From Natrialba asiatica DSM 12278 (GTDB lineage: Archaea > Halobacteriota > Halobacteria > Halobacteriales > Natrialbaceae), in NCBI RefSeq assembly GCF_000337555.1, contig NZ_AOIO01000003.1, positions 283,494-342,834 of the forward strand: 59,341 bases of DNA, in the 5' to 3' direction. Under the pieces are notes generated by a model, which saw only the letters and a list, made by a program, of their open reading frames with translations, did no database searches and was not told the DNA's origin. This document shows positions 25,266 through 38,091 of this stretch, in pieces; position 1 is the stretch's first letter, and each line of letters opens with the position of its first letter. The translations under genes and the position numbers were made by a program.

Positions 25266-27023
25266 CTACATCGGGCTGACGAGGACGACATCGATCAGGG
25301 CGACAGTCAGCGCGAACAACAGCATCGACGAGAGCAGCGTTCGACCGATGTGATAGCCAAACAGCGACCGGTCCATGCCGTACCGGAGAGCGTACGAAAG
25401 CGGCGTCATGATGAACGCGAGTAAGATTAAGTAGACGGCGACGACGACGCCGAGTTGTTCGATCGGCAGCGTACTCGCATCGGCGAAGCCATCGACGGCA
25501 TCGAAGTTCTGGACGGTGAGCATATCCGCCATCCCGACCGTCGCCCCGCCGACCATCGGGCCGAAGTACGCCGCGGTGTTATCGAGCGTGCTCGTTACGC
25601 GTACGAGTTCACGTTTCGTCTCGGCTTCGACCGTCTCGAGTTCTTCGAGGTGATCGGCCATCGAGACGATGGCACGGCCGGCGGGTTTGCCCTCGTCGCC
25701 GGCGATGGCGAGAAGGGCGGCCATGCTGTGAGCGCGCTGGCTCGGAATATCGCGAAGTGCGCCGTAGGGGCCGAGAAACGCCTCCTCGACGCTGGTGTGG
25801 AGGCGGCGCTGGACGCCGGCGGCGTGATCGAACACCGCGCCGGTCTCGGCGGGAACGCGGTCGGCCGCGAGGTCGATCGCGGACTCGACGGACTCGCCCT
25901 CGGCGACCTGGCGGCCGACGATGTACAGGGCGTCGGTCAGGTGTTCTTCGACCGCTCGGACGTGGTTTCGAAGCGCGAGAACGGGGCTGTATACGGCGAG
26001 CAGCGCCGTTCCAAGACCGGTCCCGAGACCGACGATTTCGGCGAGATACGCCGGGCCGAACGCTCCGACGAGCGCGTAGCTGATCCCGCCAACGGCCACC
26101 CCCCAACCGGTGCGCAACCAGAGCCGGTCCGGAAGTTCGGGATGGTCCCGGTCGATCGTCGGCGGCGGAAACGCGACCGGCCGCCGGACGAGCAGCCACA
26201 GCGACGCGCCGAGCAACCCGAGCGGCAGCACGATCGTATAGAGGAGCACGAATATCCAGATGTTGAGGTTGATGCCGGCCATCGGTGCGACCGGAACGAG
26301 GGCGATCAGCGCTAGCGGAAGCAGGATGCCGAACGCAAAGAGCATCGTCGTCGGCGCTCGAATCGCCGAGGTGAACTCGGCCATCCGGTTTCGCGTACCG
26401 TCGAGAATCGCGGATAACGCACGGTCGAGCGTGCGACCGCGTTCGCCCTCGGGGGCGTCCTGTGCCGTCGCCAGGAGCGTCGACGACCGGCGGAGCGCAG
26501 GGAAGTGCGCCGACCATTCCTCGGCAAACGAGAGCAGGCCGGCGTGGGGCGTCCCCTTCGAGCGATTGAAGTGCGCCTCGAGACTCCTGGCGAGCGGCCC
26601 GGTCCCCGTGTCGGCGGCGAATCGGATCGAGTTCTCGAGCGACGGCTGGATCTGCATGCGCAAGACGGCCCGACCGATGAGGTTCGGCGTATCGCCGAGC
26701 GCTTCCGTTCGACGGAACGCCGCCACCAGATGCGGCCAGGAGTGGACGCCGTGGATCGCCGCGAGCGCGGCGGTAATGACGAACACCGCGATGAAGGGGA
26801 GCGGAACGTCGGCGAGCACCAGCGGGAGCGGCACCATCGCCCCGAGCAGTCCCGCGCCGTAGCCGGCTCGGACGATCGTCGCGGCGTCGTAGGGGGCGTC
26901 GATGAACCGGACCGAATCGACGAGTGCGGCACTTGCGTCGACATCGTAGGGGTACAGCCGGGCGAGGCCGCGAATGGCGAGTGCCGGAAAGCGGGTCCGG
27001 TTCGAGCGTGCCACGACTGTCAC
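25266..27023 (-). CDS. TadC/FlaJ-like type II secretion system F-domain protein
   Basis: A 585-residue inner-membrane platform protein of type IV pilus/archaellum systems. It holds two T2SF-type cytosolic helical domains: the first at ~105-200 (MQIQPSLENSIRFAADTGTG), the second at ~375-520 (GRQVAEGESVESAIDLAADR, ending GGATVGMADML), each followed by hydrophobic helices. Two to three helices at the N-terminal part, three near the middle (~215-345) and two at the C-terminus are visible. GTG 27023 overlaps the ATPase stop, fitting the usual ATPase-platform gene pair. It should bind the secretion ATPase and guide pilin insertion. Confidence 0.85.
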   Translation of the reverse strand: MTVVARSNRTRFPALAIRGLARLYPYDVDASAALVDSVRFIDAPYDAATIVRAGYGAGLLGAMVPLPLVLADVPLPFIAVFVITAALAAIHGVHSWPHLVAAFRRTEALGDTPNLIGRAVLRMQIQPSLENSIRFAADTGTGPLARSLEAHFNRSKGTPHAGLLSFAEEWSAHFPALRRSSTLLATAQDAPEGERGRTLDRALSAILDGTRNRMAEFTSAIRAPTTMLFAFGILLPLALIALVPVAPMAGINLNIWIFVLLYTIVLPLGLLGASLWLLVRRPVAFPPPTIDRDHPELPDRLWLRTGWGVAVGGISYALVGAFGPAYLAEIVGLGTGLGTALLAVYSPVLALRNHVRAVEEHLTDALYIVGRQVAEGESVESAIDLAADRVPAETGAVFDHAAGVQRRLHTSVEEAFLGPYGALRDIPSQRAHSMAALLAIAGDEGKPAGRAIVSMADHLEELETVEAETKRELVRVTSTLDNTAAYFGPMVGGATVGMADMLTVQNFDAVDGFADASTLPIEQLGVVVAVYLILLAFIMTPLSYALRYGMDRSLFGYHIGRTLLSSMLLFALTVALIDVVLVSPM

Positions 27024-28939
27024 CTCCGGTCGGCGTACGCCGCTGCGACTTCGGCCGGCGAGACGCGCCCGTCCGTGGCGAGCGTCGAGAGTAACTCCGT
27101 CCGGTCGGCGATAGCCCCGCGCACGTCGGCGTAGGCCTCCGTCGGGCCGGCGATCGCATTGACGAACCGGCTCTCGCCGCGATCGATGCGGCCGGTCGGT
27201 GCTGCTGTGTCCCCGTCGAGTTCGTAGAGCGGCTCGAACCAGAGGTCCTCCCCGGTACCGCAGACCTCCTCGATGCGGGCGACGCGACGACTGCGTCCGG
27301 TCGACGTGGGATAGGCGTCGACCGTAACGACCAGGTCGGTCGAGCTGAACGACGAGGGTTCGACCTTCAGGTCGGAGACGACGCGTTCGTAGACCTCGCT
27401 CGCGCCGCCGCCGTGGATCGTTCCCAGAACGGCGTTTGCGTTCGCACCGACGCGCATGGCCTCGTAGAGAACCTGCGCCTCCTCGCCGCGGATCTCGCCG
27501 ACGACCAGCGCACCGTCGCCGAGCCGGAGTGCCGTGTGTAACGCGTCGGACGGCGTGATCTCTGGCCCGTCGCCGGTCCCAGTCCGAAGCGCCTGCACAT
27601 CTCGGCCGACCGTCTGTAGCGGGCTAACCGGGAGTTCCGGCGTATCTTCGATAATCACCGTCCGGGTATCCGGCGTCACCTCGTAGAGCAGCGTTCCGAG
27701 CAGCGTCGTCTTGCCCGACCCGCGGGTGCCGGCGATCAGCGCCGCCGCGTTCCGCTCGATCGCGGTCGAGAGAAAGCCCGCGACCGAGGCCGGCATCGTC
27801 CCGTTAGCCACGAGACCCGGCAGCGTGAACCGATCGTCGGACCGCTCGCGAAAGGCGAAGCCGATCCCGTCCGCAACCGGCTCCGTCACTCCCGCAATTC
27901 GCAGTCCACGATCGTTCGAAAGCGACGCCGTCGCATCGATCGTCGGCTTCGCACGCGAGAACGCACGGCCGCTCGTCCGTCTGACCCGCGAGGCGAGCGC
28001 CTTCGCCCCCGTTTCGGTGAGGTGCACATTCGTCTCCATCGCAACTCCATCGAACTCGATCCGAAGCGGGTTCGCCGTGACCGGCGACGTGACGTAGACG
28101 TCCGTCACCGCCGGGTCGGCGAACAAATCCTCAAGCACGCCGTAGCCGTCGGTATGCTTCTCCAACACCGCCGTCAGCGTCGGATCGACCGGGTCGTCGG
28201 AGACGAACTCGATCGCCCGCGACGCGGCACGGTCCCCTTCGACCCACCCCTCCGCAATCGCCTCGTACCCGTTGACGACCAGCTCGCGTTCCCCCGGCGA
28301 CAACGAGAGATCCAACGCGTCGAGCGAATATAGCGGCACCCGCTCCGCACGGTCGTAGACACGCGCCCTACTCCCCGTCTCGAGTTCGCGAACATCGTCG
28401 AGACGAGCGGTCCCCGGAATCGATTGATCGACGTAATAGTACGCGACCGCCAGTCCGAGACGCGGCGAGAACACGTCGGTATAGTCGGAAGCGTCGGCGA
28501 CGGCACCCAGTAGACCGGATTCGATCGCCACGTCGCCGATCTCGTCGACCCGCGTCTCGAGACCCGCCGCTCCTTCGATCGGATCCCGGGCAACCGCCCG
28601 CGCGAGTTCGCCGTCGCGATCGCCGAGCAGTTCGACGAAACGGCCTGCGGCACCGAGAAACGCAGTCCCTTCCCGATCGTACCGGTGTTTCAATCCATCC
28701 GTGTGGACGACGATCGAAGACGCTTCGCGGGTCGCCAGACGCTCGACGACGGAGTGCCGGCAGGCGGGCGACGCCGCGAGATCGCCGCTGCAGTCCGAGG
28801 CCTCGACCACCAGCGTTCTGTCGTCGAACTCGAGGTCACAGCCACAGTGGCTCTCGGTCGACTCGCCGCCGTACAGTCCGTCGAGACCGAGCCCCGCGAG
28901 CAGGGTCTCGACCGAACCGCCGGACGAATCAGATGACAT
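27020..28939 (-). CDS. Type II/IV secretion system ATPase (TadA/CpaF-like)
   Basis: A 639-residue hexameric secretion ATPase powering pilus assembly. The C-terminal core has Walker A AGTRGSGKTTLL (~395-406), the Asp box VIIEDTPELP (~424-433), Walker B GALVVGEIRGEE (~474-485) and the His box LGTIHGGGA (~501-509). The N-terminal ~280 residues are a divergent domain with several Cys and His near the start (HCGCDLEFD, ASDCSGDLAASPACRHS at ~32-65), possibly a metal site and uncommon in bacterial relatives. It precedes the platform gene and follows a small membrane protein by 26 bp. Confidence 0.88.
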   Translation of the reverse strand: MSSDSSGGSVETLLAGLGLDGLYGGESTESHCGCDLEFDDRTLVVEASDCSGDLAASPACRHSVVERLATREASSIVVHTDGLKHRYDREGTAFLGAAGRFVELLGDRDGELARAVARDPIEGAAGLETRVDEIGDVAIESGLLGAVADASDYTDVFSPRLGLAVAYYYVDQSIPGTARLDDVRELETGSRARVYDRAERVPLYSLDALDLSLSPGERELVVNGYEAIAEGWVEGDRAASRAIEFVSDDPVDPTLTAVLEKHTDGYGVLEDLFADPAVTDVYVTSPVTANPLRIEFDGVAMETNVHLTETGAKALASRVRRTSGRAFSRAKPTIDATASLSNDRGLRIAGVTEPVADGIGFAFRERSDDRFTLPGLVANGTMPASVAGFLSTAIERNAAALIAGTRGSGKTTLLGTLLYEVTPDTRTVIIEDTPELPVSPLQTVGRDVQALRTGTGDGPEITPSDALHTALRLGDGALVVGEIRGEEAQVLYEAMRVGANANAVLGTIHGGGASEVYERVVSDLKVEPSSFSSTDLVVTVDAYPTSTGRSRRVARIEEVCGTGEDLWFEPLYELDGDTAAPTGRIDRGESRFVNAIAGPTEAYADVRGAIADRTELLSTLATDGRVSPAEVAAAYADRR

Positions 28940-28965: not shown

Positions 28966-29430
28966 TTAAACCCGCTCCGTGACGACGAGTGGATCACCCT
29001 GCTCGTCGGAAACGAGACGGAGACGTAACCGGTGGGTTCCGGCCGCCTCGAGTGTCGTTCGCGACGCCGTCCGATTCCGAACAACGAGCCGCACGTCGAG
29101 AACCTCCCGATTTGCCGTCCCATCGTCCAGCACGTACCGGGCCATACTCGCGTCGACGTCCTCCTCGACCGGTTCGATTTCGACGTGTGAGACGCCCGTC
29201 GTCAGCAGTGACCGCTCGGGAATCAACACCTCGACGACCCGCTGCGGATCGGGATGGTCGGCAGGCGAAACCTCCTCGTTCGCAGCGAGATCGATCGCCG
29301 CAGCCTCGATATCCGAAATCGCCGTTCGTACCTCCCGTTCGGTCGCGGCAGTTGAACTCTCGGCGAGCGCCAGGCCGCCAAGCGCGAGCAGCGATACGGC
29401 GAGCAAGACGGCGAGCACGTACCGGATCAT
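28966..29430 (-). CDS. Small signal-anchored protein of the pilus operon
   Basis: A 154-residue protein with an N-terminal hydrophobic stretch (YVLAVLLAVSLLALGGLALA, ~4-23) that may be a signal peptide or anchor, followed by a predominantly beta extracytoplasmic domain. The ATG overlaps the stop of the coiled-coil gene by 4 bp and the ATPase gene is 26 bp downstream. No prepilin-type site. I recognise it only as a haloarchaeal family of unknown function that travels with these ATPases. Confidence 0.68.
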   Translation of the reverse strand: MIRYVLAVLLAVSLLALGGLALAESSTAATEREVRTAISDIEAAAIDLAANEEVSPADHPDPQRVVEVLIPERSLLTTGVSHVEIEPVEEDVDASMARYVLDDGTANREVLDVRLVVRNRTASRTTLEAAGTHRLRLRLVSDEQGDPLVVTERV

Positions 29431-30323
29431 GAGAGCCGAGACCGGATCGAGTCGACCAACCCGGTAGTATCGTCTCCGTTGGGATCGTCATCGGGGGAGT
29501 CATCGGTCTCGGAATTCGCGCGAGCAGCAGTAGCAGTATCAGTAGCCGTAGCCGTAGCCGTAGCAGTACCAGACCCAGCAGTCGTCTCAACGGTCGCGGT
29601 ATCGGGAGCAGTACCGGTGGCACCATCATCAGTCCCCGTAGGAGCGTCCCCGCCGTTCTCACGCCGATCGTTCTCCTCACCAACTGCCAGTTCGATCGCG
29701 GTCTGGTTTGCAGACGACGCCGGTCGATCAATACCGTCGTCGACGAGCGACCGCTTTCCGTCGCCGAGAACCGCCGCTACCGATTGTTCTGGCGACCCGG
29801 GAGGCGATTCTCCGGCAGGTCGGTTCCCACTTCCGCCATCATCGTCACCATCGCCACCATCACCACCATCGACAGCGGTACCGAACTGCCGGCCCTCGCC
29901 ATCTCCCGCTCGACTCTCGGGCCCTGTCTCGCCACTGGTTTCTGTCTCACCGCCAGTCACGGACCCCGCCGTATCGACAGCCGGGTCCTCGCCCGCAAGA
30001 AGCCCGCCCTCGAGATCGTCGAGTTCAACTTCCAGCGCCTCGACGCGGCGTTCGAGCCGATCGACCGTCGCAACCGCGGTCGCCGACTGTCGCTCGACCT
30101 CGTCGTTGACCGCCTCGACGTTGCCGACGTACCCCTCGATCGACTGAACGGCCCCCTCGAGTTCTGCAAGTCGTCGTTCGTGCTCCGAAAGCCGCGTTTC
30201 TATGGTCGAGACGGCGTCGGCCACCGAAGCCAGTTCCGCCAGCTCATCGAGTGCAACGTCGCCGTCGACGACGACGCGTTCGACTGCCGCCAGTCGCTGT
30301 TCGAGTCGATCCCGGTCGGTCAT
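29427..30323 (-). CDS. Coiled-coil protein with low-complexity tail
   Basis: A 298-residue cytosolic protein without membrane helices. Residues ~1-105 form a long coiled coil with heptads of Leu, Val and Ile (RLEQRLAAVERVVVDGDVAL … DRLERRVEALEVELDDLEGG). Residues ~110-298 are low-complexity and acidic (Gly, Thr, Asp), including an Ala-Thr run (GTATATATATDTATAA) coded by a hexanucleotide repeat. It lies between the small membrane protein and the anchored protein in the pilus operon. A scaffold or linker role is a guess. Confidence 0.7.
   Translation of the reverse strand: MTDRDRLEQRLAAVERVVVDGDVALDELAELASVADAVSTIETRLSEHERRLAELEGAVQSIEGYVGNVEAVNDEVERQSATAVATVDRLERRVEALEVELDDLEGGLLAGEDPAVDTAGSVTGGETETSGETGPESRAGDGEGRQFGTAVDGGDGGDGDDDGGSGNRPAGESPPGSPEQSVAAVLGDGKRSLVDDGIDRPASSANQTAIELAVGEENDRRENGGDAPTGTDDGATGTAPDTATVETTAGSGTATATATATDTATAARANSETDDSPDDDPNGDDTTGLVDSIRSRLS
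29525..29571 (+). repeat. Hexanucleotide repeat inside the coiled-coil gene
   Basis: About seven degenerate units of CCGTAG/CAGTAG type (plus strand) encode the alternating Ala-Thr run on the minus strand. Unit length is a multiple of three, so slippage would change length without breaking the frame. Confidence 0.5.
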
Positions 30324-30332
30324 CGTTGCACC

Positions 30333-30494
30333 TCACCGGAATTGGCCGATCGAAACCGTCTCTGAGACCCGCGCTGCCTCGCCGCCTGCAGCCACAATCG
30401 CAGCCAGAGACTCACGCCCAACCCCAACCGCGACAACGACAACGGCCACGACCTCGACGACACCCACAACTGTCCCTGCATAGCGATCACTCAC
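30333..30494 (-). CDS. 53-residue small membrane protein
   Basis: GTG 30494 lies within the end of the HerA-like gene (8-bp overlap) and the frame ends 9 bp before the coiled-coil gene. It encodes one hydrophobic helix (GTVVGVVEVVAVVVVAVGVG) followed by an Ala/Gly-rich tail. It exactly fills the only gap in this part of the operon, and the overlap is the same coupling used by its neighbours. Small size makes it easy to miss; family unknown. Confidence 0.55.
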   Translation of the reverse strand: MSDRYAGTVVGVVEVVAVVVVAVGVGRESLAAIVAAGGEAARVSETVSIGQFR

Positions 30495-31554
30495 GCTCAC
30501 CCGCAGCAGCGACGACGTCTCGCGCCCGCGGACTCCCGCCACCGTGTGGCGTGTCCCGAAGCCGAACCTGCGCCGCATGGATCGTCTCCGTCGCATCATC
30601 GATGACGACAACCTGTCCGGGATCGGTCGGGAGCCGATTACCAAGTGATTCGTTCATATACGTCGGCTGGGCCGCGTTCAAGGCGTCCAGATCCGCCTCG
30701 GCCGTCAGCCGATGGGAGAGCAGGATGTCGGACTGGGAAATCGCAGTCTCCGTCACTGAACTCGGGCGCTGCGTTGCGAGGACGAGGCTGACACCGGGGG
30801 CGCGCCCACGGGTAAGAATCGTGTGCAACGCCGGCTCCGCGACGCCGTCGAAGAACGTGTGCGCCTCGTCGATCATGAGCCACGGCAACCGGTCGATCGT
30901 TTCGTCGATCCGAGCACGATAGAGCGCCTCGGCAACGCCGCGGCAGATCGCGTTCATCGGGGCCGAATCCAGCCCGGAAACATCGAGAACGGTAACCGCA
31001 GCGCTTGCGAGTTCAGCCGTGCCGAGCCCGTCGGGGTCGAACACGTCCCACGAGTCCGCGAGCGCGAGGTGATTCGTCGCCGCCCGTCTGTCGGTCTTCG
31101 GTGCGTCAGCCGTCTCGATGTGGTGTTGCATAGCCGCCAGTGATGCCTTCGCCTGGGCCGCCTGCCAGACGAGCCCCCCGGCTCCGCTTTCGGGGGACAG
31201 CCCGAGCAGCGAACACCACGACCGCGGATCGAGAACATCCGCTGTCACCGCCGGCTTTGCAACGGTGTCCACGGGGACTGCCTCACCAGCGGCGGATTCG
31301 GCGAGCGTCGAAAATACGCCCATCGGATCGACGATAACAGGTGCAACGCCCTGCACCCGGGCGAGTTCCTCCGCAACGACGCCTAGCGTGAACGACTTCC
31401 CGTAGCCGCGTTTCCCGACGATCAACATTGCGTGTGGCCCGTCGAGATCGACGTGCAGTGTCGCCCCCTCGCTTCCATCGAGCGCTCGATACCGCCCAAG
31501 ATGGCCCGTCTGTTCGGTCTCAGCGTTTGCACCGCGACCGATAACGAAACTCAT
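30487..31554 (-). CDS. HerA/VirB4-like ATPase, first gene of the pilus operon
   Basis: A 355-residue P-loop ATPase of the HerA-FtsK group. Walker A is IVGKRGYGKSFTLG (~49-62), Walker B LPWLMIDEAHTFF (~220-232), and the sensor region VLATQRPSSV (~256-265). It lacks the N-terminal HAS-barrel in full (only ~45 residues precede the P-loop), so it is a compact form. DNA export or repair is the usual role of HerA relatives, but as lead gene of a pilus operon it may instead power or gate secretion of surface proteins. It is divergent from the pilin across a 102-bp region. Confidence 0.82.
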   Translation of the reverse strand: MSFVIGRGANAETEQTGHLGRYRALDGSEGATLHVDLDGPHAMLIVGKRGYGKSFTLGVVAEELARVQGVAPVIVDPMGVFSTLAESAAGEAVPVDTVAKPAVTADVLDPRSWCSLLGLSPESGAGGLVWQAAQAKASLAAMQHHIETADAPKTDRRAATNHLALADSWDVFDPDGLGTAELASAAVTVLDVSGLDSAPMNAICRGVAEALYRARIDETIDRLPWLMIDEAHTFFDGVAEPALHTILTRGRAPGVSLVLATQRPSSVTETAISQSDILLSHRLTAEADLDALNAAQPTYMNESLGNRLPTDPGQVVVIDDATETIHAAQVRLRDTPHGGGSPRARDVVAAAGERE

Positions 31555-31582
31555 AGCGAGCGTTCGCTCGCTCTCGTACTTG

Positions 31583-31629
31583 AAGTTTTACCCGATCATA
31601 TAAGTTGCATCATTTGCATAGTAAAACTT
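31583..31629. promoter_or_regulatory. Symmetrical divergent promoter between the pilus operon and pilin gene
   Basis: AAGTTTTAC (31583-31591) and GTAAAACTT (31621-31629) are perfect 9-bp inverted arms 29 bp apart. Read outward, each gives GTAAAACTTYAAG, resembling a BRE plus TATA element; each is at suitable distance from its gene (start codons at 31554 and 31657). It could be a shared operator or a pair of near-identical core promoters ensuring equal expression. Confidence 0.5.
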
Positions 31630-31656
31630 TAAGACAGATTACGAGCCAACAGGGGT

Positions 31657-32169
31657 ATGGGCTCGAAACGCCGCCCACAACTGAACTCGGTCTCTCCGGG
31701 CGATCGTCGTTCATTTGCAGACGATGATCGTGCGATTGAGGGGTTACCGATTCGGCTCGTGATCGCACTCGTTATCGGTGTTGTATCATTAGGGATAATG
31801 CTACAGATATTAGGAGGTATTGATACGTTTGAAGGGGATACAGAGGTGGATGTAGAGTTTGAGGATGATGTTATAAATATTGATGATGATGAGCATTTGA
31901 GTGAGTTCACTATCTCAGTCGTTGATGAAGACGGGAATGACGTTACAGACACAACTGTAATTGCGACTGCAGGTGATGCACAAATGGATGGCACGATGGT
32001 CGGTAGTACAGGTGAAGATTCTAATAAAGTAAAATTTATATTCGATAATAAGAATCTTCGTCTTCCACCAGATCAAGATACTGGAACAGTTGAATTTAAG
32101 CTGCAGCCGCCATCTGGGACTAATTGGGCCGATGAAAATCCTAATAATGAACTCTTGGTAGTTGGATAA
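31657..32169 (+). CDS. Pilin-like surface protein
   Basis: A 170-residue protein with a class III prepilin layout: a 25-residue charged leader, DDRA (~23-26), then IEGLPIRLVIALVIGVVSLG as the hydrophobic assembly helix. The ectodomain (~55-170) is very acidic and probably beta-rich (EVDVEFEDDVINIDDDEH…). It stands opposite the pilus operon and is the best candidate for its main filament subunit. The first ~130 bp have host-like GC; from about 31790 the gene turns AT-rich (a hand-counted line at 31801-31860 is 40 % GC), unlike the surrounding operons. This suggests that the exposed part was exchanged. Confidence 0.72.
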   Translation: MGSKRRPQLNSVSPGDRRSFADDDRAIEGLPIRLVIALVIGVVSLGIMLQILGGIDTFEGDTEVDVEFEDDVINIDDDEHLSEFTISVVDEDGNDVTDTTVIATAGDAQMDGTMVGSTGEDSNKVKFIFDNKNLRLPPDQDTGTVEFKLQPPSGTNWADENPNNELLVVG

Positions 32170-32275
32170 TAGTACGGGTTGTCAAATCACATTGATTATA
32201 ATATATTTTATAATTAGGCATTGTATTTTTATAATATTAGTATGAGTTAGTCCCACCACATATAGAAATATTATA

Positions 32276-34570
32276 GTGATAGTAGAAAAGACATTCGGTG
32301 TGAAAGATTTAACAATAAAAGTGACAAGGAGTGTCCTGATGGTCTCTCTCGCGATGTTTATCATTAGTTGTGGTATTGCTGGAATAGCAGGTGCAAATGA
32401 GGGAATGGATCTTAGAGAATTAGATGGAAGTGGAACAGAAGATGATCCATATATCATTACCACTATAGAGGAATTGCAATTAATAAACCAAAATCTCGAG
32501 GCACATTATGTACTTGGCAATAATATCGATGCTAGTAATACGAGTTCTTGGAACAGCGGGGCTGGGTTCGAGCCAATAGGCGACGGAGATATTGGCGATC
32601 GATCACAGACTCCCTTTAGTGGATCATTCAACGGACAAGGTCACACAATTTCTGGACTCATTATTGATCGGCCGGGGGAACACTTTATTGCACCATTTGG
32701 AGTTGTTACAGGAACCGTAGAAGATGTGTACTTGAAAGATATTGAAGTCTATGGTACTGAACGCCGAATTGCAGGTTTAGCAGGAGATAATCTCGGTACA
32801 ATTCAAGATGTGTCTGTTACTGGAACAGTCGAAGGAGAGGATCTTTGGGTTGGTGGACTCGTTGCACGTGGCGACGAAAGAGCAACAATCAAACGTTCAA
32901 TGGCAAATGTTGGCGTTAAGGGCGAAGAGTATGTCGGTGGTTTAGTAGGTGATAATAATGAGCAACAGATAGTCGAATCATATGCAACCGGTAATGTCGA
33001 AGGGGTTGACGGTGTTGGTGGTCTTGTTGGATGGAAAAAGAACGGAGAGAATATCGCTCAGTCGTATGCTACTGGGGATGTTTCTGGAGAGGAACGGACT
33101 GGTGGAGTAATTGGAGCGCTCGCCGGACCGATCAGTGATGGCTATGTGGTAAATACTATCGATGGAAATCCTAGTAAAACAGGGGCGATATATGGTCTAG
33201 AATCCGGCGGATATCAACGGTTGGATGCTGTTGTATCCGATTTCTATTACGAAAAACCTACGAATTACGACGGAACTGGTGAGGGAGATGATGTCGGAAC
33301 AGGACTATCTAAAGAAGAAATGACCGGTGCAGATGCCAAGACGAATATGGATCTCGACTTCGAGAACTTCTGGGCTGCGACAGACGAGTATCCGATCCTC
33401 CAGTGGCAGGTCCAAGATGTCGATCTGAGCGTCTCACAACCCGCTATCGGCGAGGGAGAAACGACCAGCGTTACGGTTGAACTCACACTGGACGATGGCT
33501 CGACTGTCACCGCATCCGAAGTTGCTAACTACGATTCCGAAACAGCCGTCGCTTCTGTCTCTGATGGAACGCTTCAGGCGAACTCCGTCGGCCAGACAGA
33601 ACTCACGGCAACTGTCGCCGGTGAGAGCGATAGCGTGACCGTAGAAGTCCTTGAGCCGCCGAACATCGAGTTCAGTGACGCTGAATTCGGCACGGAAGCG
33701 GCTGTCGACGGAACCACAGTCGAGGCGGCTGTCACCTACGAGAACACCGGCGGACCTGGTTCAGAAACGGCGGCAGTCACGGTCGACGGTGAAACGGTAG
33801 CAACAAAAACCGTACACGTCGATGCCGATAGTGAGACGACCGAATCGATCCAGTGGACTGCACAGCGAAACGGAACGGTTGCGGTGGATGGTGAACCGGT
33901 CGGAGAGCTCTCCATCGTCGCTCCCGAAGCAATAACGCTCGAGTCGATTTCCCTTCCAGATGAAGCAGCACAGGGCAGCGACTACGATATCGAACTCGAG
34001 TTCAATAACACGGCGTCGCACCCGGTTGTGGACACGGTCGAACTCCGCGTGAACGGAACTGTCGAAACGACGGAAACGGTTGAAATCGGTGCAGGTGAAT
34101 CAACGGAGACGGTCACGTACGCCTACGACGAGCAGGGGATCGCGACCCACGTCGTCGACCATCACAGCAACGATGCGACGGGGACGGTACGCATCATCGC
34201 GCCCGCAGCGTTCACACTCGACGGACTCGATGCGCCCGAGACGGTGACGAACGGAGAGGACGGTTCGGTATCCGTGACGGTGACGAATACCGGTGGGGCG
34301 TCGGAGACGCAGGAACTCGACTTGCTCGTCGACGGTGAACTCGTCGATACGCAGTCGGTGACACTCGACAGCGGCGGCTCGGAGACGATCGAGTTCACGC
34401 CAGCGTTCGACCAGCAGGGGGAGATCGCGGTCACGATCGCATCGGCCGACGACGAACTCGAGACGGTGGTTGAGAGTACGGCGGCGGCAGACGACGGCTC
34501 GCCCGGCTTTGGTGGGGCTGTCGCGCTGGCTGCGATTGTCCTTGCGACGGTCGTGATGCGGCGGCACTGA
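32276..34570 (+). CDS. GLUG-repeat adhesin with PGF-type C-terminal anchor
   Basis: A 764-residue secreted surface protein. Residues ~9-40 are a signal peptide (SVLMVSLAMFIISCGIAGIA). A DPYIITTIEELQ segment and four GLUG-like repeats (VGGLVGDN, VGGLVGWKK and similar) follow up to ~290. A Big_2-like domain lies at ~375-455, then three CARDB-like domains (~460-735, each with VTYENTGG or VTVTNTGG), and finally SPGFGGAVALAAIVLATVVM, a PGF-CTERM-like signal for archaeosortase-dependent lipid anchoring. GTG 32276 is annotated; a GTG at 32300 would give a tidier signal peptide. The DNA is AT-rich up to ~33340 and GC-rich afterwards. A role in attachment or cell-cell contact is likely. Confidence 0.78.
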   Translation: MIVEKTFGVKDLTIKVTRSVLMVSLAMFIISCGIAGIAGANEGMDLRELDGSGTEDDPYIITTIEELQLINQNLEAHYVLGNNIDASNTSSWNSGAGFEPIGDGDIGDRSQTPFSGSFNGQGHTISGLIIDRPGEHFIAPFGVVTGTVEDVYLKDIEVYGTERRIAGLAGDNLGTIQDVSVTGTVEGEDLWVGGLVARGDERATIKRSMANVGVKGEEYVGGLVGDNNEQQIVESYATGNVEGVDGVGGLVGWKKNGENIAQSYATGDVSGEERTGGVIGALAGPISDGYVVNTIDGNPSKTGAIYGLESGGYQRLDAVVSDFYYEKPTNYDGTGEGDDVGTGLSKEEMTGADAKTNMDLDFENFWAATDEYPILQWQVQDVDLSVSQPAIGEGETTSVTVELTLDDGSTVTASEVANYDSETAVASVSDGTLQANSVGQTELTATVAGESDSVTVEVLEPPNIEFSDAEFGTEAAVDGTTVEAAVTYENTGGPGSETAAVTVDGETVATKTVHVDADSETTESIQWTAQRNGTVAVDGEPVGELSIVAPEAITLESISLPDEAAQGSDYDIELEFNNTASHPVVDTVELRVNGTVETTETVEIGAGESTETVTYAYDEQGIATHVVDHHSNDATGTVRIIAPAAFTLDGLDAPETVTNGEDGSVSVTVTNTGGASETQELDLLVDGELVDTQSVTLDSGGSETIEFTPAFDQQGEIAVTIASADDELETVVESTAAADDGSPGFGGAVALAAIVLATVVMRRH

Positions 34571-34589: not shown

Positions 34590-35294
34590 TTAGACAGTTG
34601 TGGCTCGGCCGGAGAGTCGGTCTGCAGTCCGTTCGAGTCGGTCGGCAATCGAGTGATAGGCGTCGACGGCCTGTGCGTCGGCGGCGTGATCGCGGACCGG
34701 CAGCCAGCGCGCCTGTGCGTCGGCGACGGCCTGTTGGGAGGCAATAATCGTGACCTCGACACCGAGCATTCGGCTGATTTTATCGGCGATCTCGCCGTGG
34801 GAATCCCGATCGGCCTTGTTGAGGACGAGTGCAGCAATCGGCGTCTGGAGGGCATCGGCGAGGGATGCCGTTCGAAACGCGTCGACCAGTGCTGATTTGG
34901 CCGGTGTCGTAACGAGGATCGTCAGATCGGCACTCCGAAGTTCGATCCCGACATCGCGAGCGAGGCCGGCCGGACAGTCGACGACGACCGTTCCCCACTC
35001 CCGTTCGATGCGTTGGAGGATCGCATCTAGATTGTCGAGTTCACGCGCGGCGGCGCGAGCGCCGGCGAGGGTGCGCCCACAGGGGAGGAGCGTAACGGGT
35101 CCGATCGTCTCGACCGCCGCAGTCGGGTCGACGCGACCGGCGAGAACGTCGTGGAGATCGGGGCCGGTCCCTGGCGGGAGGTCGGCAGTCGTGAGATCGG
35201 CGTCGACGGCGACGGCATCGAGTTCGCGGGCGAGGTTTAACGCGGTCGTGGATTTGCCGACGCCACCTTTGCCGCCGGCGACGGCGACGATCAT
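34590..35294 (-). CDS. MinD/ParA-family ATPase
   Basis: A 234-residue deviant-Walker ATPase. The N-terminus reads MIVAVAGGKGGVGKST with the signature second Lys; VDADLTTADLPPG (~30-42) is switch I, VVVDCPAGLARDVG (~103-116) is Walker B/switch II, and LNKADRD is the base-binding NKxD-like segment. Start 35294 is set by this motif, although the frame extends 48 bp upstream. Its ATG overlaps the upstream stop (ATGA). Relatives position cell-division or surface machines; next to a pilus system it may place filaments. This is the last gene of its operon. Confidence 0.85.
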   Translation of the reverse strand: MIVAVAGGKGGVGKSTTALNLARELDAVAVDADLTTADLPPGTGPDLHDVLAGRVDPTAAVETIGPVTLLPCGRTLAGARAAARELDNLDAILQRIEREWGTVVVDCPAGLARDVGIELRSADLTILVTTPAKSALVDAFRTASLADALQTPIAALVLNKADRDSHGEIADKISRMLGVEVTIIASQQAVADAQARWLPVRDHAADAQAVDAYHSIADRLERTADRLSGRATTV

Positions 35295-35668
35295 GGGTCG
35301 AGAGCGGGAGTGCGTTCGAGAATCTTGCTCGGCGGACACCACGTATCGAGTCCTGCGAGGACTGTTTCGGGTGACCGGATGCGATCGTCTGTAGAGCGAG
35401 TGCTCGAGACGACGGTTACGAGTGGGTCGGTTGGAACGGCGGGACTCGCAAAGCCGAGTCCCTCGCTTCGGTCGGGTCGGATCGTCGTTTCCCAGCAGTT
35501 GCCGGTCCAGCGAGGGTCGGCGACGCCGTTGGGCCGGGCCGGCCAGATCGGCCCGTCGAGGCGGTGTTCGAGTCTGACTGTTTGTGGCGTCGAATGCGTG
35601 TTCGTGAGGACGACTCGGACTGTCGTCACCCCGTTCGTTCTGTCGGCGCTCGCTTCGACCGTAACCAT
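35291..35668 (-). CDS. Conserved haloarchaeal hypothetical protein
   Basis: A 125-residue soluble protein, beta-rich in its first half (VTVEASADRTNGVTTVRVVL, then TNTHSTPQTVRLEHRL), resembling an immunoglobulin-like or CARDB-like fold, and with conserved-looking Trp residues (GPIWPARPNGVADPRWTGNC). It overlaps the MinD gene by 4 bp. I do not recognise a function; co-translation suggests a partner of MinD. Confidence 0.6.
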   Translation of the reverse strand: MVTVEASADRTNGVTTVRVVLTNTHSTPQTVRLEHRLDGPIWPARPNGVADPRWTGNCWETTIRPDRSEGLGFASPAVPTDPLVTVVSSTRSTDDRIRSPETVLAGLDTWCPPSKILERTPALDP

Positions 35669-35692
35669 GGCGATGCTATTTCGCGTTCCGAT

Positions 35693-36856
35693 TTAAACGC
35701 TCGACCGTGGAGGGGGACCGTCATCAGTTGGTGCTGGATCGAACGCAGTCAGGTCCGTCGGTGAGGCAAGCACCCAGAGTTCATCTTCGGATTCGAGCGT
35801 CTCGTTGTCCGCCGGGAGCGGCAAGTGGTCGTTGCCGCGCTCGATGACGAGAACGCGTCCGGGAAGCCAGCCGGTGAACTCGCCGACGAGCGGGCCGTCG
35901 GAGTCGATCGAGAGCGTCGTGACGGTTTCCTCGACGGTTCGTAGCGTCGAGGCGAACTCGTAGCCGTCGGTCGGTTCGTCCGGGTAGGTAAGCAGCCGGT
36001 AGCGGTCGTCGGCTGGAAGTTCGTCGGAGAGGGTCGCGTCGACGATGACGGTCGCGATAGAGCGAGTCATCGTTCGAAGCGTGCCGGTCGCGATGAGTTC
36101 AGGTTCAGTGTGGTCGTCTGTCGACCAGATTGCGACGGGATCGCCGAGGCTGGCATCCGGAGATGGATCGGCTCGAATCGCGATGGCGACGGCTCCGCGG
36201 GGGACCGTCGATCCGAGTCCGGTGGACTGCTGGCCGACGAGAACGCGGTCGACGGTGCCATCGTCGGCGAGCGTCACGGCGGCATAGCCGACGTCGTAGT
36301 CGCGTTCGATGTGTCGTTCGAGGCGCTCACGGCGTGCTGTCGTCGTCAGTCCGTGCGGGAGCCTGATCGTCGCGCCTGAAAGTGCTCTGTGGACGGCCGG
36401 ATCGACTGCCTGGTATCCGGATGCCGTTGCAATCGGTTCCGGCAGTGAGATTTCGACGGCGAGCCGAGCGGATCGGACGGCAGCCGCGGCCTCGCCGTTC
36501 GCATCGATCCGCTCGATGTCGGCGACCTGACAGGCGATCCGATCGCCGAGGCGACCGCCGGCCGTCGCAGCGATACCCCCCAGAAGCATCGTTCCGAGCA
36601 GGTAGCCGGCGCTGAGACGATGATCGAGCGGGACGGCTCCGAGAAATGCCCCGGATGCAAGAGCGCTGCTAGAGAGAACGCCAGCAACCGCCGTGAGTCC
36701 GAGGAACGCGGGAATACCGGCCGGCGGCGATCGTGTCGATAGCCGGCGGTAGCCCCCCGCCGCGAGCAGCCCCGCGGTCGCCGCGAGCAACGCCGTTCCG
36801 ACGAATCCGACCGTTGCTTCCCGGGCGAGAGAGACGACGAGTTCGGGATCGATCAT
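35693..36856 (-). CDS. Membrane protein with TrkA-C (RCK_C)-like domain
   Basis: A 387-residue protein with three N-terminal helices (~10-110) and a long cytosolic part. The end (~315-370: GEFTGWLPGRVLVIERGNDH … ESEDELWVLAS) resembles the RCK_C/TrkA-C ligand-binding fold; an earlier segment (~205-265) may be a second copy. It overlaps the next gene upstream by 4 bp and has the same overall layout as it. RCK_C domains sense ions or nucleotides, so it may be a sensor; I see no channel filter. Confidence 0.65.
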   Translation of the reverse strand: MIDPELVVSLAREATVGFVGTALLAATAGLLAAGGYRRLSTRSPPAGIPAFLGLTAVAGVLSSSALASGAFLGAVPLDHRLSAGYLLGTMLLGGIAATAGGRLGDRIACQVADIERIDANGEAAAAVRSARLAVEISLPEPIATASGYQAVDPAVHRALSGATIRLPHGLTTTARRERLERHIERDYDVGYAAVTLADDGTVDRVLVGQQSTGLGSTVPRGAVAIAIRADPSPDASLGDPVAIWSTDDHTEPELIATGTLRTMTRSIATVIVDATLSDELPADDRYRLLTYPDEPTDGYEFASTLRTVEETVTTLSIDSDGPLVGEFTGWLPGRVLVIERGNDHLPLPADNETLESEDELWVLASPTDLTAFDPAPTDDGPPPRSSV

Positions 36857-38091
36857 CGGTTCACCTCGAGTTGTGGCTGTGGTTGTGATTGTGATGTAGA
36901 CTGTAGCTGTGATTGTGAGTTGGACTGCGATTGTGACCGTCTCTCCTCACAATCGGGCTGGGGCGAGCCAGCCACAAACGCCCGGTCTGCACCGTGGGGA
37001 ACCGGGTCATCGGCGCTGTGTTGCCAGTGCCAGTCTTCAGCCGTTCGCACGCCGATCGTCGTTGCTGGATCGAGTTCAGCGAGCGCGGTATCACGGACGG
37101 TGATCGGACGGCCGGCGTTGTCGAGGATCGTTGCGGCCTCGAGTGCGTGGTTGTGGGTGGCGTCGTCACTCGGCTGCACCGCGATCCGGTGGTGAGTCGA
37201 CTCGAGGAGCGTGTCGGCGGCGGCCGTCTCGACGGCGACGGTCAGCCGGCGGTCGCCGCCGTCGGTACCGATGGCCGCTCGCTGCGTGTCGGCGGCAGGC
37301 GCGACGAACTCGTGATCGGTCGCGTCCTGGGTTTCGTCGTCGATAGCGAGGGCCGTTCCCTCGACCGTCGTTTCGTCGCCGCTAATGAGAACGCGATCGC
37401 CGGGTTCCAGGCCGGTCGGGAGCAGCCCGGTTACCGTTACCGCCCGGAACCCGTCGGCGAGGGTCGTCGCGACGCCCTTGGACGGCGGAGCGGCAGCGAT
37501 CGTCGCTCGCCCGCGGCCATCGACGGCGACGCGAACGGTGGCGAGTCCGTGGTCGGTTCGAAGGCGGCGCTCGAGACGGTCCTCGAGTTCGGCGAGCTGA
37601 AGGTCGGCGGGGAATCGCCAGGCACCGTTTTCGAGGGCGGTCCGGAGGGCGGGTGAGAGCGGTGGATAGCCGTCGAGCTCGCGGATCGCACCGGTCGGCC
37701 GAATTGTGACCTGTCCCATCGCGTCGACGGCGTCGATCGCGTCGGCGGACAGCGCCTGCCCGCGGACGATGGGAAACGTTCGGTCCTGCGGGAGTGCAGT
37801 TGCGATCCGCGCACCCTGGCTCGTGGCAAAGACGCCGAGCACGCCGGCGATGACGCCGACAAACGCGAGTCGAATCGCCTGTGCGAGGACGGGACCAGAG
37901 CCATGGACGCCACCGAAGACGACGATCGCAGCCGCGATCGCAGCCGCGAAGAGTCCGGTCGCGGCGGGTACCGATCGGTCTCGAGCGAGACCGACGCCTG
38001 CTGCAATCAGGCCGAACAGGACGGCGGGACCGGTGCCCGCCAGAAGGCCGTACGAAACGCCAAGCAGTGATTCGTATGGAAGGTCGACCAT
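36853..38091 (-). CDS. Membrane protein, paired with the downstream TrkA-C-like protein
   Basis: A 412-residue protein with three N-terminal helices (~12-100) and a cytosolic region similar in plan to its neighbour: a helix-beta unit (LAELEDRLERRLRTDHGLAT followed by VRVAVDGRGRATIAAAPPS) matches RRERLERHIERDYDVGYAAV of the downstream protein. The two look like diverged duplicates. The C-terminus is a Ser-Gln run (SQSQSNSQSQLQSTSQSQ) encoded by a hexanucleotide repeat. No known function. Confidence 0.62.
   Translation of the reverse strand: MVDLPYESLLGVSYGLLAGTGPAVLFGLIAAGVGLARDRSVPAATGLFAAAIAAAIVVFGGVHGSGPVLAQAIRLAFVGVIAGVLGVFATSQGARIATALPQDRTFPIVRGQALSADAIDAVDAMGQVTIRPTGAIRELDGYPPLSPALRTALENGAWRFPADLQLAELEDRLERRLRTDHGLATVRVAVDGRGRATIAAAPPSKGVATTLADGFRAVTVTGLLPTGLEPGDRVLISGDETTVEGTALAIDDETQDATDHEFVAPAADTQRAAIGTDGGDRRLTVAVETAAADTLLESTHHRIAVQPSDDATHNHALEAATILDNAGRPITVRDTALAELDPATTIGVRTAEDWHWQHSADDPVPHGADRAFVAGSPQPDCEERRSQSQSNSQSQLQSTSQSQPQPQLEVNR
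36871..36937 (-). repeat. Hexanucleotide repeat coding for a Ser-Gln tail
   Basis: Degenerate TTGTGA/CTGTGG-type units on the plus strand, about eleven in a row, encode alternating Ser and Gln (later Pro-Gln) on the minus strand, ending 5 residues before the stop. Length variation by slippage would keep the frame. Confidence 0.55.

Follow-up and report, generated by a model that had tools for sequence, protein, structure and literature searches.

Why does a single AT-rich segment of a haloarchaeal genome begin inside one gene and end inside the next? We addressed this question in a 59-kb stretch of DNA (here called the window), which was compared with relatives sampled at one genome per species; the closest named relative of the window's genome is Natrialba taiwanensis DSM 12281. 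The segment falls in two plus-strand genes, encoding a pilin-like protein and an adhesin, that are enclosed by minus-strand groups on both sides. The left-hand group comprises genes for a PilC/TadC-like membrane protein (25266 to 27023; without a Pfam match and named from its position beside PilB), a PilB/TadA-type secretion ATPase (27020 to 28939; PF00437, E = 1.7e-18, with a TIGR03819-like match below the cutoff), DUF7311 and DUF7310 (coiled-coil) proteins (28966 to 30323; PF23993 and PF23991), and a HerA-superfamily ATPase (30487 to 31554; PF05872/PF01935 weak, above the cutoff), which is divergent from the pilin gene and forms the left flank of the AT-rich block. The right-hand group encodes a MinD/ParA-like protein, a DUF7857 protein, and two TrkA-C-like proteins (34590 to 38091, assigned by Pfam) and also a second ParA-like protein. 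The order within these conserved flanks is kept in relatives, and the HerA-like ATPase gene adjoins the pilin gene in most of them. Many haloarchaea keep the gene order around the pilin; some of them have the adhesin and others lack it.

The pilin-like gene (31657 to 32169, plus strand) encodes a 170-residue DUF7382 protein (PF24107), the match being confined to the part of the protein that lies within the block. In the AlphaFold2 (AF2) model (mean pLDDT of 74), a helix at residues 30 to 52 precedes a beta domain at residues 62 to 169. The protein has the architecture of a type IV pilin, with a hydrophobic N-terminal helix ahead of a globular beta domain, and its gene lies with those for PilB and PilC. 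The leader and hydrophobic helix (codons 1 to 52; 31657 to 31812, plus strand) make up a conserved end, the left anchor, in which DDRAIEGLPIRL..AL is near invariant between genera and synonymous divergence in close pairs is low relative to the pilin head. The putative prepilin signal was judged from conservation and anatomy, without a signal-peptide predictor. The variable beta domain (codons 61 to 170; 31837 to 32166, plus strand) is delimited by the AF2 model and by a step in synonymous divergence (dS) against N. taiwanensis. HerA-adjacent pilin remnants occur at two other loci, L093 (G041) and L112 (G008), where only the N-terminal end is present (query residues 7 to 74 and 16 to 46, respectively), followed by unrelated sequence.

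The adhesin gene (32276 to 34570, plus strand) encodes 764 residues with GLUG (PF07581), CARDB (PF07705), and PGF-CTERM (TIGR04126) matches. The open reading frame begins at GTG 32276, and alignment favors GTG 32300, which may be the actual start. In the AF2 model (mean pLDDT of 87), the head, which extends to about residue 345, is built of short repeated strands and is read as a putative beta-helix; about four Ig-like domains follow, with a helix at the C-terminus. Foldseek comparison of the pilin and adhesin models with the PDB returned generic Ig/beta-sandwich matches only, which were given no weight in judging function. All features of a surface adhesin are met, namely, a signal peptide (identified through inspection), a GLUG head, a CARDB stalk, and PGF-CTERM, while adhesion itself is inferred. 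The variable head (codons 45 to 345; 32408 to 33310, plus strand) is defined by the AF2 strand pattern, the GLUG match, and saturated divergence in close pairs. The stalk, or right anchor (33356 to 34567, plus strand), contains about four Ig-like/CARDB domains (residues 379 to 735) and PGF-CTERM (residues 739 to 764) and is highly identical in close pairs; the original prediction of a conserved CARDB/PGF anchor at the adhesin C-terminus was thus borne out.

The block (31781 to 33371) is a 1.6-kb segment that takes in the pilin beta domain, the intergenic gap, and the adhesin signal peptide and head. Likelihood segmentation of the window returned a single such segment, 31541 to 33371, with 42.6% GC between 65.9% and 60.8% and log-likelihood gains of 111 and 58 at its edges; the edge at 31541 takes in the naturally AT-rich promoter region that separates the pilin gene from the divergent HerA-like gene. 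Coding GC is 65%, 43%, and 61% before, in, and after the block, dropping at the end of the pilin helix and rising at about adhesin codons 354 to 360. The lowest 1,500-bp stretch of the window has 41.5% GC, compared with 50.5% for the next nonoverlapping stretch and a median of 62.9%. Third-position GC (GC3) falls from 0.55 in pilin codons 1 to 40 to 0.25 from codon 41 onward and is 0.15 to 0.50 in the adhesin through codon 360, then 0.5 to 0.95. The four GC values counted by hand for the original prediction (40.0, 23.3, 45.0, and 63.3%) proved exact, and the GC and GC3 profiles place its edges, at about 31790 and 33340, correctly to within about 30 bp. A separate compositional border lies near 22.9 kb, where positions 1 to 22944 average 57% GC versus about 66% to the right.

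At least eight haloarchaeal genera show the same two composition breakpoints, nearly always at loci in which the pilin gene is directly followed by the adhesin gene. The pilin head is AT-rich relative to its locus in 17/19 loci with an adjacent adhesin versus 2/82 loci without one (Fisher P = 3e-15, a value that overstates independence because the loci are related), and this association holds across families. For most genera in the family of the window, and for G231 from another family, GC3 change points fall at pilin codons 51 to 65 and adhesin codons 341 to 361. In other families, heads are AT-rich with more varied edges (pilin codons 56 to 113, adhesin codons 276 to 342), and in the adhesin-bearing loci of G014, G097, and G124, AT-richness is absent or only mild. 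A general AT-richness of GLUG proteins was rejected, given that most unlinked GLUG genes have a GC3 of 0.6 to 0.85. The AT bias is old, being present in many genera with host-specific sequence; it is a long-lived, strand-symmetric property of the alleles and not proof of a recent low-GC donor. Synonymous changes polarized with outgroups, an analysis based on few sites and sensitive to outgroup choice, gave no clear drift to GC in two pairs keeping a same-class allele, and two Natronorubrum comparisons leaned slightly the opposite way, on small counts.

Three further loci depart from the usual arrangement. L153 (G362:C6:149500-160500) carries two tandem pilin-adhesin pairs, an AT-rich first pair with an adhesin head GC3 of 0.40 and a GC-rich second pair with 0.82. 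At L096 (G084), a rearrangement of the HerA-pilin cluster has separated the adhesin gene from the pilin gene, and both heads have a GC3 of 0.71 to 0.72. At L185 (Natrarchaeobius chitinivorans AArcht4), an AT-rich stretch (42 to 56% GC) follows the pilin with no adhesin match detected; it may contain a different partner gene.

Divergence between close species changes at nearly the same positions. Flanks are approximately 90 to 97% identical, while the block shows approximately 55% DNA identity with saturated synonymous sites, and the divergent tracts mostly end at pilin codons 58 to 78 and adhesin codons 336 to 372, near the domain borders predicted by AF2. Within the Natronorubrum clade, G109 and G107 (N. 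texcoconense) share 96% of HerA, 90% of stalk, 71% of pilin-head, and 51% of adhesin-head residues; their DNA identity is 95% up to pilin codon 67, 56% from there to adhesin codon 336, and 89% beyond, with synonymous differences (pS) of 0.02 at the pilin 5' end versus 0.77 in the pilin head. Steps at pilin codons 58 to 65 and adhesin codons 353 to 372 separate G348 from Haloarcula rara and G103 from G107; tracts in G162/G193 and G103/G109 are narrower or weaker. Compared with N. taiwanensis, the window has a dS of 0.12 to 0.16 in the HerA, ParA1, TrkC1, TrkC2, and D7310 genes (0.16 in HerA and 0.12 to 0.15 in the right flank), 1.1 to 1.2 in pilin codons 76 to 170, and 1.39 in adhesin codons 61 to 120, from which it declines toward the C-terminus. 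In the lineage of the window itself, the most recent tract runs from pilin codon 75 to adhesin codon 154 and is shorter than the AT-rich block; therefore, the block and this tract are not identical.

Paralogs follow the same pattern. In the two copies within the G012 genome and in the tandem pair of G231, stalks are 87 to 92% identical and heads 52%. The G231 locus, L148 (G231:C2:10000-27000), has two tandem adhesins behind one pilin, with a common stalk and different heads, and may represent a reservoir or a duplication stage. Adhesin codons 44 to 80 (32405 to 32515, plus strand) form a conserved strip near the N-terminus that is 92 to 97% identical between the G012 paralogs (dS of 0.38) with saturation on both sides; it is also seen in G348 versus Haloarcula rara and may act as an additional crossover anchor that allows head-only exchange.

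Alignment across relatives, which had been proposed as the deciding comparison, revealed conserved ends, differing middles, and breakpoints that recur in several close pairs and in paralogs. Two parts of that expectation required revision. The middles differ without being unrelated, as the block alleles are homologous over their full length at approximately 50% amino acid identity; the breakpoints recur across genera, but some tract edges are graded rather than sharp, tract ends differ among pairs, and the latest tract in the window's lineage is shorter. Gradual divergence across both genes or a vertical block phylogeny, either of which would have refuted the proposal, was in general not observed: divergence changes in steps, and inheritance of the block is not vertical.

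Tree comparison also supports exchange. Flank and block trees were built for 13 loci; because the test groups were picked after the identity table, the AU P values are not strictly a priori. The flank tree joins G109 with G107 (100/100) and rejects G109 with G103 (AU P = 0.0003), while the block tree joins G109 with G103 (100/99) and rejects G109 with G107 (AU P = 0.003). Close pairs without the adhesin served as a control; in these, pilin-head pS is near HerA pS, with no jump. Where only one member of a pair has the adhesin (e.g., L123 with L106, L107, or L109), the pilin head is likewise replaced, and its pS reaches 0.82 to 0.86 against 0.37 to 0.40 for HerA, as if the adhesin were gained or lost together with the pilin head, to judge by these alignments. 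Pilin-head and adhesin-head similarity also covary after correction for HerA and stalk (partial r = 0.52, 0/2,000 permutations).

Taken together, the comparisons of divergence and topology show that replacement of alleles between haloarchaeal lineages has occurred repeatedly at this locus, that its ends fall within the two genes, close to where the pilin helix meets the beta domain and the adhesin head meets the stalk, and that it leaves the pilin leader and helix, the adhesin stalk and anchor, and the neighboring genes in place. The block is best explained as an intragenic cassette of alleles spanning two genes, made up of the exposed beta domain of the pilin together with the adhesin signal peptide and head. 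We consider it highly probable, on sequence evidence, that allelic replacement, probably through homologous recombination in the conserved flanks, codiversifies the filament and the adhesin. Imported DNA would recombine by ordinary homologous recombination, with a left crossover in HerA and the pilin 5' end, a right crossover in the adhesin stalk and beyond, and occasionally an additional crossover in the strip at adhesin codons 44 to 80 or elsewhere in the head. Presumably the gain is that filament surface and adhesin specificity change at the same time, which could help cells to recognize partners or surfaces or to escape viruses. The cassette exchange originally proposed is thus supported by the tree conflict and the pilin-only control, while its mode, homologous recombination, remains an inference: it is the simplest reading, made without recombination biochemistry. 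In the absence of any identified donor that carries a near-identical block, the replacements are inferred solely from divergence and tree conflict. The anchors of different genera are only approximately 70 to 75% identical, which is low for efficient recombination; exchange would therefore occur mostly within genera or between close relatives.

For the persistent AT-richness of the block, our preferred but unproven explanation is that heterologous alleles escape a GC-raising force to which the alignable flanks are subject, either gene conversion or codon selection. The split pair of G084, with near-normal GC3, fits this idea but is a single case. A more far-reaching version, which we regard as a speculative and rather unlikely possibility, holds that a circulating pool of AT-rich, paired pilin-head and adhesin-head alleles constitutes a recognition (mating- or kin-type) system in haloarchaea, with pilus and adhesin specificities inherited as well as exchanged jointly, and that the alleles stay AT-rich since unlike alleles cannot pair, barring GC-raising gene conversion or codon selection. 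If this were true, base composition would be a footprint of long-term allele exchange.

Explanations without exchange fare worse. In-place hypermutation (by a reverse transcriptase, a deaminase, or relaxed repair) or very strong diversifying selection, with drift to AT, could produce a block that is AT-rich and in which alone both dN and dS are high, but we hold it to be very improbable. G177 and G326, which have one block allele in common, show a block dS of 0.11 to 0.17, near that of HerA (0.11), and four-fold sites in the block are strand symmetric (A, 0.36; T, 0.34; C, 0.16; G, 0.14), unlike the products of a deaminase; on these two grounds, deaminase-like hypermutation was rejected. The conflict between flank and block trees also opposes change in place. 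The genome contains no RVT_1 family member, and without a reverse transcriptase or long repeat, the locus does not qualify as a diversity-generating retroelement. No inverted repeats of at least 16 nt occur in 31400 to 33800, as an invertible shufflon or phase switch would require, and no long direct repeats were found at the block edges. In Neisseria pilE/pilS, the pilin N-terminus is conserved and the exposed part varies through recombination; no silent pilin copies were found in the Natrialba genome, and neither the block DNA nor the pilin has a second copy there, as a pilE/pilS-type system would demand.

An equally poor prospect is vertical inheritance in which codon selection is relaxed and exposed domains are under little constraint, so that the step would be a rate difference only. 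The full-length homology of the alleles is compatible with it, as is the retention of major clades in block trees (e.g., the Natronorubrum group stays together). A rate difference does not explain a pS that rises from 0.02 to 0.77 inside one gene, a well-supported topology conflict, pilin-only loci that evolve at the pace of HerA, or paralogs in which stalks are conserved and heads are not. Also very improbable is a single recent import of low-GC DNA, whether from a virus, a plasmid, or a low-GC archaeon, that is still to ameliorate. The sharp GC step of approximately 20 points suggests it, but the same AT-rich block, bounded at the same positions or similar ones, occurs across several families and in many genera, and its sequence follows host clades. 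No viral contig relative was found, plasmid matches were distant GLUG/CARDB proteins only, and the two same-class pairs, on few sites, show no clear drift to GC.

Allelic replacement at this locus resembles several known systems in part. In Halorubrum ezzemoulense, homeocassettes are divergent homologous alleles exchanged at a single locus flanked by conserved core genes, and in one pair the alleles specify a type IV pilus system (PMC11078007). Mutually exclusive divergent homologous alleles between conserved neighbors are likewise found here, across species; however, homeocassettes are whole-gene islands with at least half homeoalleles, whereas the Natrialba block ends inside two genes, replaces only exposed halves, and carries a strong AT signature. 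By analogy, the block is best read as an intragenic relative of haloarchaeal homeocassettes, the closest known concept. Rhs elements share the signature of a GC-rich conserved core and an AT-rich variable tip, the tip being exchanged via core homology (PMC2935791), but each is one gene with displaced tips stored downstream; here, two genes are involved and no stored tips were found. In group A Streptococcus, adhesin and backbone pilin genes are diverse and are moved by recombination, giving new surface types (PMC11078000); this is a bacterium with unrelated pilus proteins, and its alleles are described per gene rather than as one two-gene segment. The accessible part of the report on VARTIG in Thermococcales describes a surface-protein domain made hypervariable by recombination between species and not by silent copies (PMC8416519); the C-terminal Ig domain varies there and downstream genes are shuffled, and that part reports no pilin link or composition step. 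In the Ups pili of Sulfolobales, a variable type IV pilin part determines cell recognition, and swapping it switches the partner (PMC7064770). This was a laboratory swap of a short UpsA region in a different phylum, not a natural cassette with a paired adhesin; by analogy, it would be the best precedent for a recognition role, which here is inferred only. No prior description of this locus as exchangeable was found in the literature searched, coverage of which was incomplete.

The locus is one where haloarchaea appear to alter the filament exterior and the partner adhesin together, with the assembly parts untouched, and it is a candidate for how promiscuously recombining archaea tell apart partners or surfaces or evade viruses. 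The recurrence of AT-rich composition near the same domain borders in distant genera, tied to the presence of the adhesin, is unexplained, and the block's AT-richness may reveal what keeps the rest of haloarchaeal genomes GC-rich. As a separate observation, the HerA-like ATPase shows weak similarity to CedD, an archaeal DNA-translocating ATPase (E = 2e-6, far below the cutoff); a role in DNA transfer for the pilus locus is an open lead that rests on this weak similarity.
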